Below are positions 5,700-13,098 of a stretch of DNA of 64,000 nucleotides, one piece after another (position 1 is the first letter of the stretch; the number at the start of each line of letters is the position of its first letter). The DNA is taken from positions 4,092,001 through 4,156,000 of the forward strand of contig AP018281.1 of assembly GCA_002368355.1 (NCBI GenBank). Direction: 5' to 3'. The stretch comes from Chondrocystis sp. NIES-4102 (GTDB lineage: Bacteria; Cyanobacteriota; Cyanobacteriia; Cyanobacteriales; Xenococcaceae). The notes under the pieces were generated by a model. It searched no databases. It was not told the origin of the DNA and saw nothing but the letters and a program-made list of their open reading frames with translations. Made by a program: the position numbers and the translations under genes.

Positions 5700-6095
5700 A
5701 TGACTGAAAACCTACCAACACGCGGACAAGTAGAAAGAGATTTATCACAGAAAATTCAAGCTTTTTATCGTAATTATTTAAAGCATCCACCTTCCAAGGT
5801 AACTTGTCAATTATTTAGTGAAAAGTTAGCCATAATTATTGAAGATTCTATTACTAGTGCGGAGCAGATACTAATTAATCAGGGTAACGAAAATTTGGCT
5901 AAGGAAATTCGTTCTCATTTGGATGATGCTATTCAACCTGAGCTTAAAGATTTGATTGAAGAAGTTTTACAGGTAAAAGTTAGTGACTTATTAAGTGATG
6001 CTACTTTAGAAACTGGTCGTACAGGAATTATTATTGTTCTAGAAAGCTCCCCTAAATTAAAGAATCACAGTTCTAAAGATAAAAATAAAAAATAA
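5700..6095 (+). CDS. DUF2294 domain-containing protein
   Basis: 131 residues. The pattern TRGQVERDLSQKIQAFYRNY, then LIIxxxGxxxxAE-like helices and an ending around GRTGIIIVLE, is that of the DUF2294 family (small cytosolic proteins of unknown function in cyanobacteria and Bacillus). No signal peptide. The tail after LESSP is Lys-rich and probably disordered. ATG is preceded by GGAGATAAAAAGAA, a good ribosome-binding site. Confidence 0.75.
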   Translation: MTENLPTRGQVERDLSQKIQAFYRNYLKHPPSKVTCQLFSEKLAIIIEDSITSAEQILINQGNENLAKEIRSHLDDAIQPELKDLIEEVLQVKVSDLLSDATLETGRTGIIIVLESSPKLKNHSSKDKNKK

Positions 6096-6226: not shown

Positions 6227-6646
6227 TTAACAATGCTCATAACTCAAAAAATATTTAAGTTTACTTTCTAATTCTTGAATTAAAAAAGGTTTACAAATAT
6301 AATCAGCACATCCAGCAGCCATAATTGCTGTTTGTTGTTCTGGAAAAGCCAATCCTGTTACTGCTATAACTGGAATATGACTAGTGATTGGATTAGTTTT
6401 AAGTAAACGGGTTATTTCTAAACCATTTATTTCTGGCATTACCATATCCAGTAAAATTAAATCTGGTGATTTCTCGATAGCTAAATCTATAGCTTGTTTA
6501 CCACTTAAAGAAACTATATGTTTCAACTTTAAGTTATCAAGTATACAGCTTACAAAAAAAAGATTATCCTGATCGTCATCTACCACTAAAGTTAGAGAAA
6601 GACTTTTAGGTAGTTTTCGTTGTAGTTGGACGTTACAGCTATTCAA
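6227..6646 (-). CDS. Single-domain response regulator (CheY-like)
   Basis: 139 residues, all one receiver domain: acidic pair VVDDDQDN, phosphoacceptor Asp in LILLDMVMPE, Thr in AVTGLA and Lys in CKPF. There is no output domain, so it must act by protein contact or phosphotransfer. Start is TTG, reading MNSCNVQLQRKLPKSLSLTLVVDDD. It is the leftmost gene of a signalling island reaching 13.1 kb. Cognate kinase unknown; the ethylene-receptor-like kinase nearby is a candidate by position only. Confidence 0.88.
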   Translation of the reverse strand: MNSCNVQLQRKLPKSLSLTLVVDDDQDNLFFVSCILDNLKLKHIVSLSGKQAIDLAIEKSPDLILLDMVMPEINGLEITRLLKTNPITSHIPVIAVTGLAFPEQQTAIMAAGCADYICKPFLIQELESKLKYFLSYEHC

Positions 6647-6934: not shown

Positions 6935-7681
6935 TTATTTAACTAATCCAGCCCGTAAAGCTCTAACAGCAGCTTGAGTACGATCATCAGCACAAAGCTT
7001 ATTCAAAATATGACAGACATGGGTTTTCACTGTACCAACGGTAATATATAACTTTTCTGCAATTTCAGCATTGCTACAACCGCCGACAATCAATTCCAAG
7101 ACTTCCAATTCTCTTTCAGTTAGAGGATAAGTTTCTAACAACTGCTGATATTCCTCACCTACTGCGGTGATCGATTGAGTATCATTAAGATCATCAGGGG
7201 TATCACTATTAGTTTCGCTGGTGGGTTGAGCAATAACTTTAGTTTTACGAGCTTGTTTTAAGACTATGCGAGCGATCGCGGGATCAATCCAAGCATTTCC
7301 TTCATAGGTGTTGCGAATTGCCTGTACTAAATTATCCATGCTAACGTCTTTTAAGCTATAAGAATCTGCACCCGCAGCAAAAGCAGCCATCACTGAGTCT
7401 TCGCTACTGTGCATAGTCAGCATTAAAATTTTAGTTTTAAAATCTATATTTTCTAGTTCGTGTTGTTTAATTTTTTGAGTAATCTCAATGCCATCGATAT
7501 CAGGTAAACCTATATCTACTAAAGCCACATCAGGTTGATGGGTTTTAATTTTTTCCAGTCCATCTTTGCCATTAGCAGCATTATCGACAATATCAATATC
7601 TGGATATTGTTTGAGAGCAGCACACAAACCGATACGACTAAGATCGTGATCTTCAATTAAAACAACACTAATTTTATTCAT
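6935..7681 (-). CDS. NarL/LuxR-family response regulator
   Basis: 248 residues. An N-terminal receiver (VVLIEDHDLSRIG; phosphoacceptor in VALVDIGLPDIDG; TMHS; KDVS in place of KP) is joined by a Ser/Thr/Asp-rich linker (about 155-180) to a C-terminal LuxR helix-turn-helix, TERELEVLELIVGGCSNAEI then VGTVKTHVCHILNKL. Likely a DNA-binding transcription factor. It is transcribed divergently from the sensor kinase that starts near 7851, so the 170-base spacer could hold its own operator. Confidence 0.92.
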   Translation of the reverse strand: MNKISVVLIEDHDLSRIGLCAALKQYPDIDIVDNAANGKDGLEKIKTHQPDVALVDIGLPDIDGIEITQKIKQHELENIDFKTKILMLTMHSSEDSVMAAFAAGADSYSLKDVSMDNLVQAIRNTYEGNAWIDPAIARIVLKQARKTKVIAQPTSETNSDTPDDLNDTQSITAVGEEYQQLLETYPLTERELEVLELIVGGCSNAEIAEKLYITVGTVKTHVCHILNKLCADDRTQAAVRALRAGLVK

Positions 7682-7850
7682 CGATTATGGATAAATTAAA
7701 TATTTTTAATAACAGGGTTATAACTATTTTATTCCTAGACTGTCTAATATATTTTTAGCAATTCCATCATCCCCAAGATGTATATCTTTTGGTATAAGCT
7801 GCGATTAGGATTTAAGATCGAAGGCAATAGTTTAATTGCCTGTATATACA

Positions 7851-9902
7851 ATGAACGAGTTATTATTATCTATTGGGCTATCTCAGGAAATATATTATCT
7901 GGGAGGGCCTGAGGTTGGGATATTGCATCTAATCTGTAATGGAATAATCGCCCTTGCCTATTTTTTAATTTCTCTAACATTCTTGTATATTTTATATCGA
8001 CGGGAAGATGTGCCTTTTAAAGGTCTTCTGTTTTTATTTATAATATTTATTTGGCTCTATAGTGCTAGCTACGCTCTAGATATATGGGTATTTTGGCATC
8101 ATGATTACTTAATATCTGGTTTAACTAGACTAGTAACCGCGATAATTTCCTTTACCACAGCGATCGCTTTAATTCTTAAAATTCCAGAAATATTGCTGCT
8201 ACCTTCTCCCAAACAAGTTAATAATATCAATCAGGAACTGCAAAGAACAATTGAAAAACTAGAAGCCCAACAGATAATCGTCAATAAACAAAAACAAAGA
8301 TTACAACATCTGTTAGAAAATCATCAGCAAGCAGAAATAGAATTAGATCGTGAAAAGAACTTCTTACAAGCAATCTTAAGTAATCTCTCCGATGGAATTG
8401 TTGCTTGCGATCAAAATGGCATTTTAACTTTATTTAACCAGGCAACAATAGATTTTCATGGTCTACCTCATACACCTCTGACTGCTGATCAATGGTCAGA
8501 ACACTACAACTTATATCTGATTGATGGACAAACCCCGATGCCTAAAAATCAAGTTCCCCTATTTCGTGCTTTAGCTGGCGAATCGGTGCGCGATGTAGAA
8601 ATGAAGATTGTGCCTAAAGATGGTCAACCGCGTACTATTTTAGCTAACGGCGATCCGATTATTGCTCTTAACGGCAAGAGATTGGGTGCGGTGATAGCGA
8701 TGCGAGATGTCACTGAACTAAAAAAAACTCAACAAGCCTTGTGGGAAAGTCAGGCACAATTTTTGGAAATTTTTACCCATGCTGCTGTTGGTATGGCAAT
8801 TGTTGATCTTGATGGTAAGTGGATAGAAGTTAATCCCACTTTATGTCTGATGTTGGGTTATAGCCATAGAGAATTGCAAGCTACTAATTTTCAAGCGATT
8901 ACCTACAGCGAAGATTTAGATCAAGACTTGCTAAAAGTACAAGAGTTACTATCAGGAGAAATTGCTTCTTACCAGATGGAAAAACGCTATATCCATAAAC
9001 ATGGTAATCTTATCTGGATTAATCTTAGTGTCTCTTTAGTTAGAAATAAATTACAACAACCTTTATATTTCGTTACCCTACTCGAAAATATCAATCAACG
9101 CAAACAAGCTGAACTAGCATTAGCCCAACTTAATGAAGATTTAGAGGAAAGAGTAGAAAGACGTACCACTAAACTAGAAAAAATTAATAATTTACTGCGA
9201 CAGACAAGCGAACAACTAAAAAAAAGCAATCAGGAATTAGAACAATTTGCCTATATAGCGTCCCACGATCTCAAAGCCCCCTTAAGAGCGATCGCGAATT
9301 TATCTCAATGGCTAGAAGAAGATTTAGAAGATAAATTAGATGACACTAGTAGACATAATTTAAATCTATTAAGAGGTAGAGTTCATCGCTTAGAAAACTT
9401 AATTAATGGTCTGTTAGCTTATTCTAGGGTTGGCAAAGTTAAAAATGAAACAAAAAAGGTAATAATTGCCGATTTATTAGCAGATATTATTGACTTATTA
9501 GCTGTAGGGTCAAATTTTGAAATCAATATTCAAGGAACAATGCCAACCTTAATCACAGAAGAATTACCCCTACAACAAGTATTTAGTAACCTAATTAGTA
9601 ATGCCGTAAAACATAGCGATCGCCATGCTGGAAAAATTACCATTTCTGTAGTAGAACAACAAGAATTTTGGGAATTTGCCGTTGCTGATAATGGTCAAGG
9701 GATCGAGGCGCAATATCATGACAAAATCTTTACCCTCTTCCAAACTTTAAAGGCACGAGATGAGCAAGAAAATACAGGTATTGGTTTAGCGATTGTTAAA
9801 AAAGCTGTAGAAAATCAAGGAGGGCAAGTTACGGTTGAATCTGAGTTAGGAAAAGGAACTACTTTTCGTTTTACTTGGAAAAAAATTTCAAATAATAATT
9901 AA
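7851..9902 (+). CDS. Sensor histidine kinase with degenerate ethylene-receptor-type membrane domain
   Basis: About 683 residues. Residues 24-117 form three membrane helices that align without gaps to the ethylene-binding domain of ETR1 and cyanobacterial SynEtr1 (GIIALAYFLIS, EDVPFKGLLFLF, LDIWVFWH, TAIISFTTAIALI). But the positions of ETR1 Asp25, Cys65 and His69 are Asn30, Tyr70 and Tyr74, so copper and ethylene binding is doubtful. Two PAS domains follow (about 170-295 and 300-425), then a coiled coil, HisKA (ASHDLKAPLRAI) and HATPase (NLISNAVKHSD, DNGQGI, TGIGLAIVKKA). ATG 7851 was chosen; TTG at 7836 is the alternative. Neither has a strong ribosome-binding site. Confidence 0.87.
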   Translation: MNELLLSIGLSQEIYYLGGPEVGILHLICNGIIALAYFLISLTFLYILYRREDVPFKGLLFLFIIFIWLYSASYALDIWVFWHHDYLISGLTRLVTAIISFTTAIALILKIPEILLLPSPKQVNNINQELQRTIEKLEAQQIIVNKQKQRLQHLLENHQQAEIELDREKNFLQAILSNLSDGIVACDQNGILTLFNQATIDFHGLPHTPLTADQWSEHYNLYLIDGQTPMPKNQVPLFRALAGESVRDVEMKIVPKDGQPRTILANGDPIIALNGKRLGAVIAMRDVTELKKTQQALWESQAQFLEIFTHAAVGMAIVDLDGKWIEVNPTLCLMLGYSHRELQATNFQAITYSEDLDQDLLKVQELLSGEIASYQMEKRYIHKHGNLIWINLSVSLVRNKLQQPLYFVTLLENINQRKQAELALAQLNEDLEERVERRTTKLEKINNLLRQTSEQLKKSNQELEQFAYIASHDLKAPLRAIANLSQWLEEDLEDKLDDTSRHNLNLLRGRVHRLENLINGLLAYSRVGKVKNETKKVIIADLLADIIDLLAVGSNFEINIQGTMPTLITEELPLQQVFSNLISNAVKHSDRHAGKITISVVEQQEFWEFAVADNGQGIEAQYHDKIFTLFQTLKARDEQENTGIGLAIVKKAVENQGGQVTVESELGKGTTFRFTWKKISNNN

Positions 9903-10248: not shown

Positions 10249-10680
10249 ATGCAGGAAAAACCTATTAACATATTATTAGTGGAGGATGACATAGTTGATG
10301 TTATGAACGTAAAGCGAGCGTTTAGACAATATAAAATAACTAATCCTCTATATGTCGCCCATAATGGGATAGAAGCCTTGTCGATGTTACGCTCTCAACC
10401 AGGGAAACCAGCCGAAGTGCCAACAACTAGGAGATTAATTCTACTAGACCTAAATATGCCTAAAATGAACGGTTTAGAATTTCTCCAGGAGATTCGACAA
10501 GATCCAGAGTTAAAAAGAACTCCCGTTATCGTCTTAACCACCTCAGATGAGGATCGAGATAGAATAGAAGCATATAACTTTAATGTAGCAGGTTATATTC
10601 TAAAACCAGTTACCTTTGGTAGTTTTGCAGGGGTAATGGTAGCACTAACTAACTATTGGACTTTATGTGAAATGCCTTAG
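10249..10680 (+). CDS. Rcp1-type single-domain response regulator
   Basis: 143 residues. The opening INILLVEDDIVDVMNVKRAF, the phosphoacceptor in LILLDLNMPKMNG, VLTTS, and the ending GYILKPVTFGSFAGVMVAL are typical of the Rcp1 subfamily, small receivers paired with cyanobacterial phytochromes and PAS kinases. No DNA-binding domain. It lies only 14 bases before the next kinase gene, so the two are an operon; the receiver could be the target of that kinase or of the kinase just upstream. Confidence 0.9.
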   Translation: MQEKPINILLVEDDIVDVMNVKRAFRQYKITNPLYVAHNGIEALSMLRSQPGKPAEVPTTRRLILLDLNMPKMNGLEFLQEIRQDPELKRTPVIVLTTSDEDRDRIEAYNFNVAGYILKPVTFGSFAGVMVALTNYWTLCEMP

Positions 10681-10694
10681 ACAGTGATTACATA

Positions 10695-11963
10695 ATGATT
10701 GAAGAACACTTTTCTATTTTATTGGTTGATGATGATGAAGTTGATCGCCTAGCAGTGCAAAGAGCATTAAAAAAGGCTCAGGTTTCAATTGAGTTAATAG
10801 AAGCTAAAAATGGGACTGAAGCGATTTCTCAACTACAACTTTCCAAAAACAATCTAATTAAAGTAGTTCCTACTGATTATTCAATAGTTGGGTTTAATAA
10901 GCATATATTTGATTTAATTTTATTAGATTATCGTTTACCAGATATTAATGGGTTAAACTTAATCAAAGAAATACAAGCTGTCAATTTAGACTTACCGATC
11001 ATAGTTTTAACAGGGCAAGGCGATGAAGAAATAGCCGTAGAAATTATGAAAGCGGGGGCAGCAGATTATTTAGCAAAATCTAAAATAGAGCCAGCCATGC
11101 TAGCCAGAGCCATTACTAGTGCTATTCGGTTGCATAAGGCAGAACAAGCTGTAAAACTTGCTAATCAGTGTTTAGTTGCCAATAACGAATTATTAAAACT
11201 TAAGAACAAAGAATTAGAAAAACAACAAGAACAAATAAAAATACAGAATATAAAATTAAAGGAATCATATAATCTTAAATCAGAATTTCTAGCAACTATG
11301 TCCCATGAATTACGCACGCCAATGAATGCAATTATGGGATTTTCACAATTACTATTACGTCAGTATCCAGAACCTTTAAGCCCACAGCAGCAGAATCTTG
11401 TACAACGGATTTTTAATAATAGTAAGAATCTGCTAGATATGATTAATGAGATGTTGGATTTCTCTAAAATAGAAGCGGGGAAATTAGAGTTAAATATTCA
11501 AAATTTAGATTTAGCTAATATTATTACTATAACTGTTGAAGAATTACGGTCTCTAGCAGTGCAAAAAAACATAGATTTAGCGATCGAAATCAATCTTCAA
11601 GATCAAGTATTGATTCAAGATATCAACTTTATTAAACGTAGCTTAATCAATTTACTCTCGAATGCGATCAAGTTTACAGAAATAGGTTGTGTAAAAGTAA
11701 AAGCATGGGAAATAAATAACAATAGAATTGGAATTGCTGTAATCGATACAGGAATAGGAATATCTTTAGAAGATCAAGAGAAAATTTTTCAGGCGTTTCG
11801 CCAAGTGGATCAAAGTTTTACTCGTCATTATTCTGGCACAGGATTGGGTTTAGCAATTACAGAATCTTTAGTAAAAATGATGGGAGGAGAAATAACAGTA
11901 GAAAGTGAATTGGGTAAGGGAGCAACTTTTACGCTACAAATCCCTCGTAAGCATGATGGATAA
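10695..11963 (+). CDS. Hybrid protein: N-terminal receiver plus histidine kinase
   Basis: 422 residues. Receiver at about 5-140 (ILLVDDDEVDR, LILLDYRLPDING, VLTGQG, AKSK), then a Lys/Gln-rich coiled coil (about 155-195), HisKA with FLATMSHELRTPMNAIMGFS, and HATPase with SLINLLSNAIKFTE, DTGIGI and GTGLGLAITES. No membrane helix, so it is cytosolic. A receiver fused ahead of a kinase suggests it receives phosphate or is allosterically switched by it. Co-transcribed with the Rcp1-type gene; the next hybrid kinase follows 67 bases later. Confidence 0.92.
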   Translation: MIEEHFSILLVDDDEVDRLAVQRALKKAQVSIELIEAKNGTEAISQLQLSKNNLIKVVPTDYSIVGFNKHIFDLILLDYRLPDINGLNLIKEIQAVNLDLPIIVLTGQGDEEIAVEIMKAGAADYLAKSKIEPAMLARAITSAIRLHKAEQAVKLANQCLVANNELLKLKNKELEKQQEQIKIQNIKLKESYNLKSEFLATMSHELRTPMNAIMGFSQLLLRQYPEPLSPQQQNLVQRIFNNSKNLLDMINEMLDFSKIEAGKLELNIQNLDLANIITITVEELRSLAVQKNIDLAIEINLQDQVLIQDINFIKRSLINLLSNAIKFTEIGCVKVKAWEINNNRIGIAVIDTGIGISLEDQEKIFQAFRQVDQSFTRHYSGTGLGLAITESLVKMMGGEITVESELGKGATFTLQIPRKHDG

Positions 11964-12030
11964 TTAGAGGATAATTTTTTATTATGATTAACATTTAACA
12001 ATATGTTTAAAAATATTAACCATAATATAC

Positions 12031-13098
12031 ATGCCTGTAACAGAAGCAAGTAAAAAAAAATATATTTTAGCCGTCGATGATATTCCTGATAACCTTTTAT
12101 TAGTTCAATTGGCACTAGAACAAGAAGGACATCATGTTATTTTGGCTCATAATGGTGAAGCAGCTTTAAAACAAATTAAGTTAGCTCCTCCTAGCGTGAT
12201 TTTATTAGATGTAATGATGCCTGGAATGGATGGTTATGAAGTCACCCGAAGGATTCGAGAGGATCGCAATTTACCTTTTATTCCCATATTATTAATTACA
12301 GCTAGAGAAGAATCAAGTCTTATTGAAGGGTTAGATGCTGGAGCGGATGAATTTGTCAGAAAACCCTTTCAAATTGAGGAATTACAGGCGAGAGTACGTT
12401 CAATGCTACGGCTGAAAGAAACAATAGATCAAAGGGAAAATTTTGTTTCTTGTTTGACGCACGATTTAAGAACTCCTTTAATAGCTGCAAATCGAATGTT
12501 AGATTTAATTAGACAGCAAGCATTTGGTGAAATTAGTACTCAACAACAAGAAGCGATCGCGAGTATTGTTAGCAGTAATGATCATATGTTGGCGATGTTA
12601 AATACATTGTTAGAAACTCACCAGTATGAATCAGGACAAAAAGTATTGGGTTTTTTGCCTCTTGATTTAAAGTCTTTAATTGAGGAAATAATTACTGAAT
12701 TGACACCTTTAGCTAGGGAGAAAAAGCTAGAGTTAAAATCAGATGTAGTTGTAGAATCAATTGAGATAAAAGGCGATCGCTTAGAACTACGTCGCGCACT
12801 TACAAATCTCATTGCTAATGCTATTAAATTTACTGATCTAGGTGAGATTATAGTCTCTTTATCCTACAATGAATTAAAGGTAATCATCAAAGTTAGCGAT
12901 ACGGGCATTGGTATTTCTGCCCAAGAACAACAAGGCATTTTTCAAAGATATCATCAAGGTAATCATCGACGCTCTGGTAAAGGTTTGGGATTATATCTGT
13001 GTCAACAGATTATTAATGCTCATCGGGGCGAAATATTGGTAGAATCTCAACTTGATCATGGAACAACTTTTACTGTTTGTTTGCCAAAATCTAATTAA
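12031..13098 (+). CDS. Hybrid protein: N-terminal receiver plus histidine kinase (second copy type)
   Basis: 355 residues with the same order as its upstream neighbour but without the long coiled coil: receiver (ILAVDDIPDN, VILLDVMMPGMDGYEV, ITAREE, RKPF), HisKA with CLTHDLRTPLIAANRMLDLI, and HATPase with RRALTNLIANAIKFTD, DTGIGI and GKGLGLYLCQQII. Cytosolic. The THDLRTPL H-box and a G2 box with LGLYLCQ place it in a different kinase subgroup from the gene before it, so this is not a simple tandem duplication. Last gene of the signalling island. Confidence 0.9.
   Translation: MPVTEASKKKYILAVDDIPDNLLLVQLALEQEGHHVILAHNGEAALKQIKLAPPSVILLDVMMPGMDGYEVTRRIREDRNLPFIPILLITAREESSLIEGLDAGADEFVRKPFQIEELQARVRSMLRLKETIDQRENFVSCLTHDLRTPLIAANRMLDLIRQQAFGEISTQQQEAIASIVSSNDHMLAMLNTLLETHQYESGQKVLGFLPLDLKSLIEEIITELTPLAREKKLELKSDVVVESIEIKGDRLELRRALTNLIANAIKFTDLGEIIVSLSYNELKVIIKVSDTGIGISAQEQQGIFQRYHQGNHRRSGKGLGLYLCQQIINAHRGEILVESQLDHGTTFTVCLPKSN

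Follow-up and report, generated by a model that had tools for sequence, protein, structure and literature searches.

The window, that is, the entire stretch of 64,000 nucleotides of Chondrocystis sp. NIES-4102 DNA that was analyzed, encodes on its forward strand (7851..9902) a predicted sensor histidine kinase of 683 amino acids, in which open reading frame and Pfam analysis delineate an N-terminal membrane domain of the ETR1 type, a linker, two PAS domains, a HisKA domain and a HATPase_c domain. The frame starts with ATG, and a TTG further upstream, at 7836, is a possible alternative start. The membrane domain, correctly placed at 7851-8220 in the initial annotation, matches the ETR1_N family (PF25487, the ethylene-binding-domain fold) over residues 23-115 (7917..8195, forward strand) at 94.3 bits (cut-off 27) and an E value of 5.7e-27, far above chance, which bears out the family membership proposed there. 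Downstream of it, all on the forward strand, are PAS domain 1, which is common to the orthologs (residues 176-291, 8376..8723, Pfam PAS_4), PAS domain 2 (residues 305-410, 8763..9080, Pfam PAS), the HisKA dimerisation/phosphoacceptor domain (residues 463-527, 9237..9431) and the HATPase_c kinase domain (residues 571-677, 9561..9881). Both kinase domains exceed their Pfam cut-offs (40.1 versus 26.9 bits for HisKA and 97.9 versus 26.4 bits for HATPase_c), and the domain composition is that of a predicted sensor histidine kinase, with the two PAS domains and the retained kinase that had been described.

AlphaFold2 models built from 7 sequences, which are monomers of modest to moderate confidence, predict three transmembrane helices in the places expected for ETR1_N (20-50, 57-82 and 86-116; best mean pLDDT 70.8 and pTM 0.60, with the five models spanning 52.2-70.8), and a canonical control domain (L053), modeled with the same 7 sequences, yielded helices at 20-50, 57-79 and 87-116 (pLDDT 69.0, pTM 0.50). 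A sequence search of the PDB gave no match for the window domain at E <= 1 and a single match for the control at E 0.39, taken as chance, and a fold search gave 14 matches, none of them at E <= 0.001. Against NCBIfam, the membrane domain alone matched no family above cut-off, the only 16-bit match, to a 20-position peptide model, being attributable to chance. In its own genome (completeness listed as 100%, 7 contigs), this domain is the only ETR1_N match above cut-off; further weak matches (G000:C1:51503-51619, E 0.01, and G000:C2:87314-87442, 13 bits) span a stop and were dismissed as chance.

The kinase gene is flanked by a divergently transcribed LuxR/NarL-type response regulator (6935..7681, reverse strand; Pfam Response_reg and GerE), a possible partner by position only, and, on the downstream side, by a single-domain response regulator (10249..10680, forward strand; Pfam), which is about 80-82% identical to its counterparts in four loci of the genus (G388, G387, G396 and G390). 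Two receiver-kinase proteins (10695-11963 and 12031-13098, together 10695..13098, forward strand) belong, by Pfam and locus comparison, to the same conserved neighborhood. A 131-amino-acid protein (5700-6095) and a small response regulator (6227-6646) also accompany the locus in several genomes of the genus, with 63-68% and 37-56% identity, respectively.

Residues of the copper site and binding pocket

The window domain aligns with ETR1 without gaps and with an offset of +5 from helix 1 through the end of helix 2. The landmarks named in the initial annotation (YF at 37-38, P55 and W79) fall into register, Y37/F38 corresponding to Y32/F33, P55 to P50 and W79 to W74, and I40 and I67 likewise match I35 and I62. 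The same ungapped alignment reproduces the three annotated replacements, namely, Asn30 (AAT, 7938..7940, forward strand) in the position of Asp25, Tyr70 (TAT, 8058..8060, forward strand) in the position of the copper ligand Cys65, the very change found in etr1-1, and Tyr74 (TAC, 8070..8072, forward strand) in the position of the copper ligand His69. Two further changes came to light, Ser41 (7971..7973, forward strand) in place of Pro36 and Ser71 in place of Gly66.

We take the seven binding residues of ETR1 to be D25, Y32, I35, P36, I62, C65 and H69 (a set assembled in part from PMC8879215, PMC11819568 and PMC6586836). Three of these are kept in the window protein (Y37, I40 and I67) and four are changed: both copper ligands are tyrosines, and, among the other five, D25N and P36S are replaced and Y32, I35 and I62 retained. 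Seven residues of ETR1 are said to be required for ethylene binding (PMC6682694), copper is modeled beside C65 and H69 (PMC6586836), and binding is diminished in Y32A, F61A, I62A, C65Y and H69A (PMC8879215). Cys65Tyr is the Arabidopsis ETR1 allele etr1-1, for which loss of both copper and ethylene binding is described (PMC9011138), and mutation of the comparable cysteine abolishes ethylene binding in SynEtr1 (PMC11819568). With regard to Asp25, the published statements differ: mutation of this residue, like that of Cys65, is reported to eliminate binding in ETR1 (PMC11819568), whereas a review states that an Asp-to-Asn receptor is functional, with an approximately 100-fold lower affinity, and that natural D25 variants exist (PMC13012798).

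The initial annotation treated the three replacements as a single set accompanying the loss of binding, and this holds for Cys65 and His69 but not for Asn30. Among 19 other domains that carry the motif HGMCYLW, all 19 keep the cysteine and the histidine, and the D25 position is occupied by Asn in 15 and by Asp in 4; this receptor group is defined by the motif rather than by a tree, and the window domain, which lacks the motif, is assigned to it through its nearest relatives. We accordingly rejected D25N as part of the ligand loss, since Asn is common in domains that retain both ligands. Given this prevalence and the reported functional but weaker Asp-to-Asn receptor, Asn30 was probably inherited, and the HGMCYLW group may consist of low-affinity ethylene receptors. 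When the seven binding positions are compared across these 19 domains and the window (20 rows), only the replacements of Cys by Tyr, His by Tyr and Pro by Ser are particular to the window. In the HGMCYLW domains generally (for example, L083:10070-12052 and L291-L300), which are candidate low-affinity receptors, Asn usually takes the place of Asp25 and Arg often that of Lys91. Arg at the K91 position accompanies Asn in 13 of 21 domains and Asp in 20 of 157, only K or R partners being counted (Fisher p 2.4e-6, shared ancestry ignored); we set this association aside as evidence because the p value is uncorrected for shared ancestry.

Candidate alternative Cu(I) ligands are present in the window protein, namely, Cys29, His26, His83 and His84, and unusual Cu(I) ligation, for instance, by Cys29, His26 or His83/84, is possible. 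A conserved substitute copper site at Cys29 or His26, which the initial annotation had named as one finding that would overturn its reading, was rejected: Cys29 occurs in none of the 19 other HGMCYLW rows, and His26, invariant in the 7 aligned rows, is general in the family. A sequencing error was likewise discarded as the source of the replacements, as the two orthologs used for comparison depart from the window protein at 51 and 50 of 105 residues, yet the frame is open.

Orthologs in the genus and divergence of the membrane domain

The closest matches of the membrane domain within the genus are six domains (L035-L040) with 48-54% identity, all six with the cysteine and the histidine, and with Asp in two and Asn in four at the D25 position. 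A scan of the genome collection yielded 6 relatives, with Asp, Cys and His in all of them, and among 388 genomes drawn from the order, equally similar domains, with up to 55% identity, occur in other genera (G410 and G612). In G388, the divergent LuxR-type and the single-domain regulators are both 81% identical to those of the window and the two receiver-kinases 74 and 76%; the receptor itself is 44% identical overall and 70% in the kinase core. By segment, identity to seven orthologs amounts to 65-75% in the kinase core, 47-62% in PAS domain 1 (in the six of the seven sequences with a match) and 50-55% in the membrane domain (in the four of the seven that match there). PAS domain 2 has no match at E 1e-3 among the seven ortholog sequences tested, and the membrane-nearest PAS domain of the orthologs is absent from the window protein. 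The closest kinase, with 75% identity, lies at the start of a contig (C123) of G392, in which a membrane domain with Asp, Cys and His lies at the end of another contig (C564), and we infer that the two are parts of one gene. Judging by the synteny and the kinase identity of 65-75%, the window gene is orthologous to receptor genes in which Cys and His are retained.

The genus comparison covered 13 genomes, some of them fragmented or incomplete (G395 81%, G392 82% and G394 91%), so that absences in these carry less weight. The LuxR-type regulator was detected in 12 of the 13, the 11 other copies being 81-84% identical to that of the window, and it had no match at E <= 1e-60 in G389. Next to the regulator, a receptor with both ligands is encoded in four genomes (G388, G392, G393 and G070), and the de-liganded state was seen in the window. 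In five of the 12 regulator-bearing genomes, the receptor does not adjoin the regulator: three have the regulator but no such receptor next to it (G387, G396 and G391), and in two (G386 and G390) a receptor with Cys and His resides on a contig apart. The frame in G390 is split in two, the domain and the kinase being encoded separately in overlapping frames (L087:8831-10416, contig C99) and the regulator lying on another contig without the receptor. Finally, in G394 (L142:991-2598) and G395 (L143:4299-5927), the kinase adjoins the regulator and begins at the linker (MNNVNQQL and MNDINQQL), without a membrane domain, no remnant of which was found when the short stretch upstream was read in all three forward frames. 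For these two genomes, we infer deletion of the domain, as opposed to its gain elsewhere. A species tree based on SdhA and the regulator is poorly resolved near the window (support of 18-27 at the three surrounding nodes), and a kinase-core tree puts G392 beside the window with a support of 84, other nodes there having 50-100.

In the lineage of the window, the membrane domain changed fast relative to its own kinase, by a factor of about 2-3. Among six orthologs, the ratio of maximum likelihood distances between membrane domain and kinase core was 1.89-3.03 in the 6 pairs that include the window versus 0.45-1.12 in the 15 other pairs, and without G392 it was 1.87-2.34 in 5 window pairs versus 0.45-1.12 in 10 others. 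The dN values in three window pairs were 0.33-0.37 for the domain and 0.22-0.24 for the kinase, compared with 0.11 and 0.17 for the pair of G388 and G070; dN/dS on the window lineage was abandoned as a measure, dS being saturated or nearly so.

Despite this divergence, the helices have stayed apolar. They contain 4 polar residues (DEKRNQH), against means of 8.1-11.3 under simulated neutral drift, and 4 or fewer were reached in 12, 6, 3 and 0 of 1000 runs under four settings, which started from G388 or G070 and applied either the full observed number of changes or half of it, extant orthologs standing in for the ancestor and some of the change perhaps preceding the ligand loss. Charged residues alone give a weaker sign (140, 60, 42 and 32 of 1000 runs as low), and in hydropathy only helix 1 is clearly apart from drift (7-14 of 1000 runs, compared with 64-103 for helix 2 and 63-528 for helix 3). 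Since the polar residues are fewer than in nearly all drift runs, something still selects for the membrane domain; in our reading, selection goes on maintaining a membrane domain, which is no proof of a sensor.

Ligand loss among ETR1_N domains

A census was compiled of 194 distinct ETR1_N domains, each aligned over 80 positions or more (196 rows, of which 2 shorter ones were dropped; loci L001-L259). All seven binding residues are present in 137 of the 194, Cys65 and/or His69 is missing in 17, and both are missing in 2, fractions that do not represent frequencies because the set was chosen by hand with weak matches over-sampled, the weakest rows, L155 and L158, being doubtful alignments. The two domains without either ligand are that of the window and L154, which has Trp and Ser. 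Across aligned columns, the identity between the window domain and the 16 other ligand-lacking domains is just 18-41%, and, given this low identity, loss of ligands probably arose more than once. The initial annotation had proposed an alignment that would ask whether Asn/Tyr/Tyr marks a conserved subfamily. No such subfamily emerged: the set occurs in 1 of the 194 domains, that of the window, and in none of 13 loci read by residue from a longer match list (2 of which the census had not covered), all 13 of which keep Cys and His.

Single replacements by tyrosine were encountered elsewhere, His to Tyr in three weak domains from the same family but different genera (L150, L151 and L152) and Cys to Tyr in L045. 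The weak, altered domains L147, L148 and L151 of one genus (g144) and L150 and L152 of another (g145), with changes of Cys to Gly, His to Asn and His to Tyr, are distant from the window. The domain L045 belongs to a second locus of G070 (L089:9206-11242, contig C40), which encodes a diguanylate cyclase with ETR1_N, PAS and GAF domains; it has Cys65 replaced by Tyr and Pro36 by Ser, keeps His69, and represents a second, separate natural change of the etr1-1 kind in the genus. In L047, its 85.5% identical counterpart, the Cys65 and Pro36 positions are intact. The dN of the L045 domain is barely above that of the rest of the protein (0.080 versus 0.074), unlike the situation in the window.

Functional implications and relation to known receptors

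Taken together, these observations make it fairly probable that the window gene is the ortholog of an ethylene receptor that has lost the copper site and, with it, the ability to sense ethylene, the PAS region having been rebuilt and the membrane anchor kept. The loss of ethylene binding that the initial annotation considered probable is, indeed, likely, with tyrosine in the place of both copper ligands. Without Cu(I), the domain would no longer bind ethylene, and the kinase would be blind to it; the membrane domain would stay as an anchor and dimeriser, the cytosolic PAS domains would set the kinase activity, and the signal could be handed to the neighboring LuxR-type regulator, a putative partner by position only. 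By analogy only with the plant etr1-1, the receptor might be locked in the ethylene-free output state. Against this reading stand the retention of three of the seven binding residues and the apolar helices, which imply selection.

The same two features, together with the intact kinase domains, would suit a repurposed sensor, in which the two tyrosines line the old copper site, a different small ligand, hydrophobic or redox, occupies the pocket and the kinase is still driven. That helices so divergent remained apolar, that Y37, I40 and I67 persist and that tyrosine is a repeated replacement (in L150, L151, L152 and L045) are compatible with such a change of ligand; however, the Tyr pair recurs in no second genome among the domains examined, the other ligand-lacking domains show little similarity to that of the window, and a relaxed constraint would account for both the faster divergence and the lack of the domain in genus mates, so we regard this alternative as rather unlikely. 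Its more explicit version, in which the domain would detect some different small molecule without copper, Tyr-Tyr and Asn30 forming a new pocket that acts through the PAS domains on the kinase and on the LuxR-type regulator, is likewise unlikely. The proposal in the initial annotation that the protein may sense something else thus finds no positive support, as the accelerated divergence and the domain-less kinases of G394 and G395 fit loss of function equally well or better. Continued binding of ethylene, either copper-free or with other residues as copper ligands, would be in line with the domain family, the three kept binding residues and the presence of Cys29, His26, His83 and His84, but it is quite improbable because changes of Cys65 and His69 in ETR1 remove or diminish binding (PMC8879215, PMC9011138) and no conserved substitute site is apparent. 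Least probable is a decaying gene heading for loss and without current function, to which the rapid divergence of the domain, the separation of receptor and regulator in several genomes and the split frames in G390 could be ascribed, but which is at odds with an open frame of 683 codons, kinase domains above cut-offs, a kinase core so similar to those of the orthologs and helices kept apolar.

Plants and many bacteria are known to possess ethylene receptors. The putatively ethylene-blind window protein is an ortholog with a clear pedigree that combines the etr1-1 substitution, arisen naturally, with the loss of the second ligand. Since the only ETR1_N match above cut-off in this genome lacks the ligands, judging by the mere presence of the domain would exaggerate the extent of ethylene sensing. 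Moreover, intact, de-liganded, domain-less and receptor-less states coexist beside a conserved regulator within one genus, which makes the role of the kinase without the ethylene sense testable. We found no report of bacterial ETR1-type domains devoid of both copper ligands in searches of the open-licence PMC literature, which is weak evidence of absence.

The closest known counterparts are the genus orthologs (G388, G392, G393 and G070), which adjoin the same LuxR-type regulator, share 65-75% of the kinase core and, by nearest relatives, belong to the same receptor group; unlike the window protein, they keep Cys65, His69 and the HGMCYLW motif, have another PAS set, and are only 48-55% identical to it in the membrane domain. 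SynEtr1 of Synechocystis (slr1212) and GeiEtr1 and GeiEtr2 of Geitlerinema resemble the window protein in being cyanobacterial histidine kinases with an ETR1-type membrane domain at the N terminus (PMC6682694); they differ in that they contain GAF or cyanobacteriochrome domains, and, moreover, ethylene binding has been measured for SynEtr1, which has another partner regulator (slr1213), whereas GeiEtr1 and GeiEtr2 keep all seven binding residues. The kinases of G394 (L142) and G395 (L143) adjoin the same regulator, with 66-68% kinase identity, but differ from the window in lacking the membrane domain and starting at the linker. The change in the window is natural and includes the replacement of His69, whereas etr1-1 is a mutant allele of a plant receptor in which His69 is unchanged. 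What the two share is the tyrosine in the same position, for which loss of copper and ethylene binding is reported in Arabidopsis (PMC9011138).
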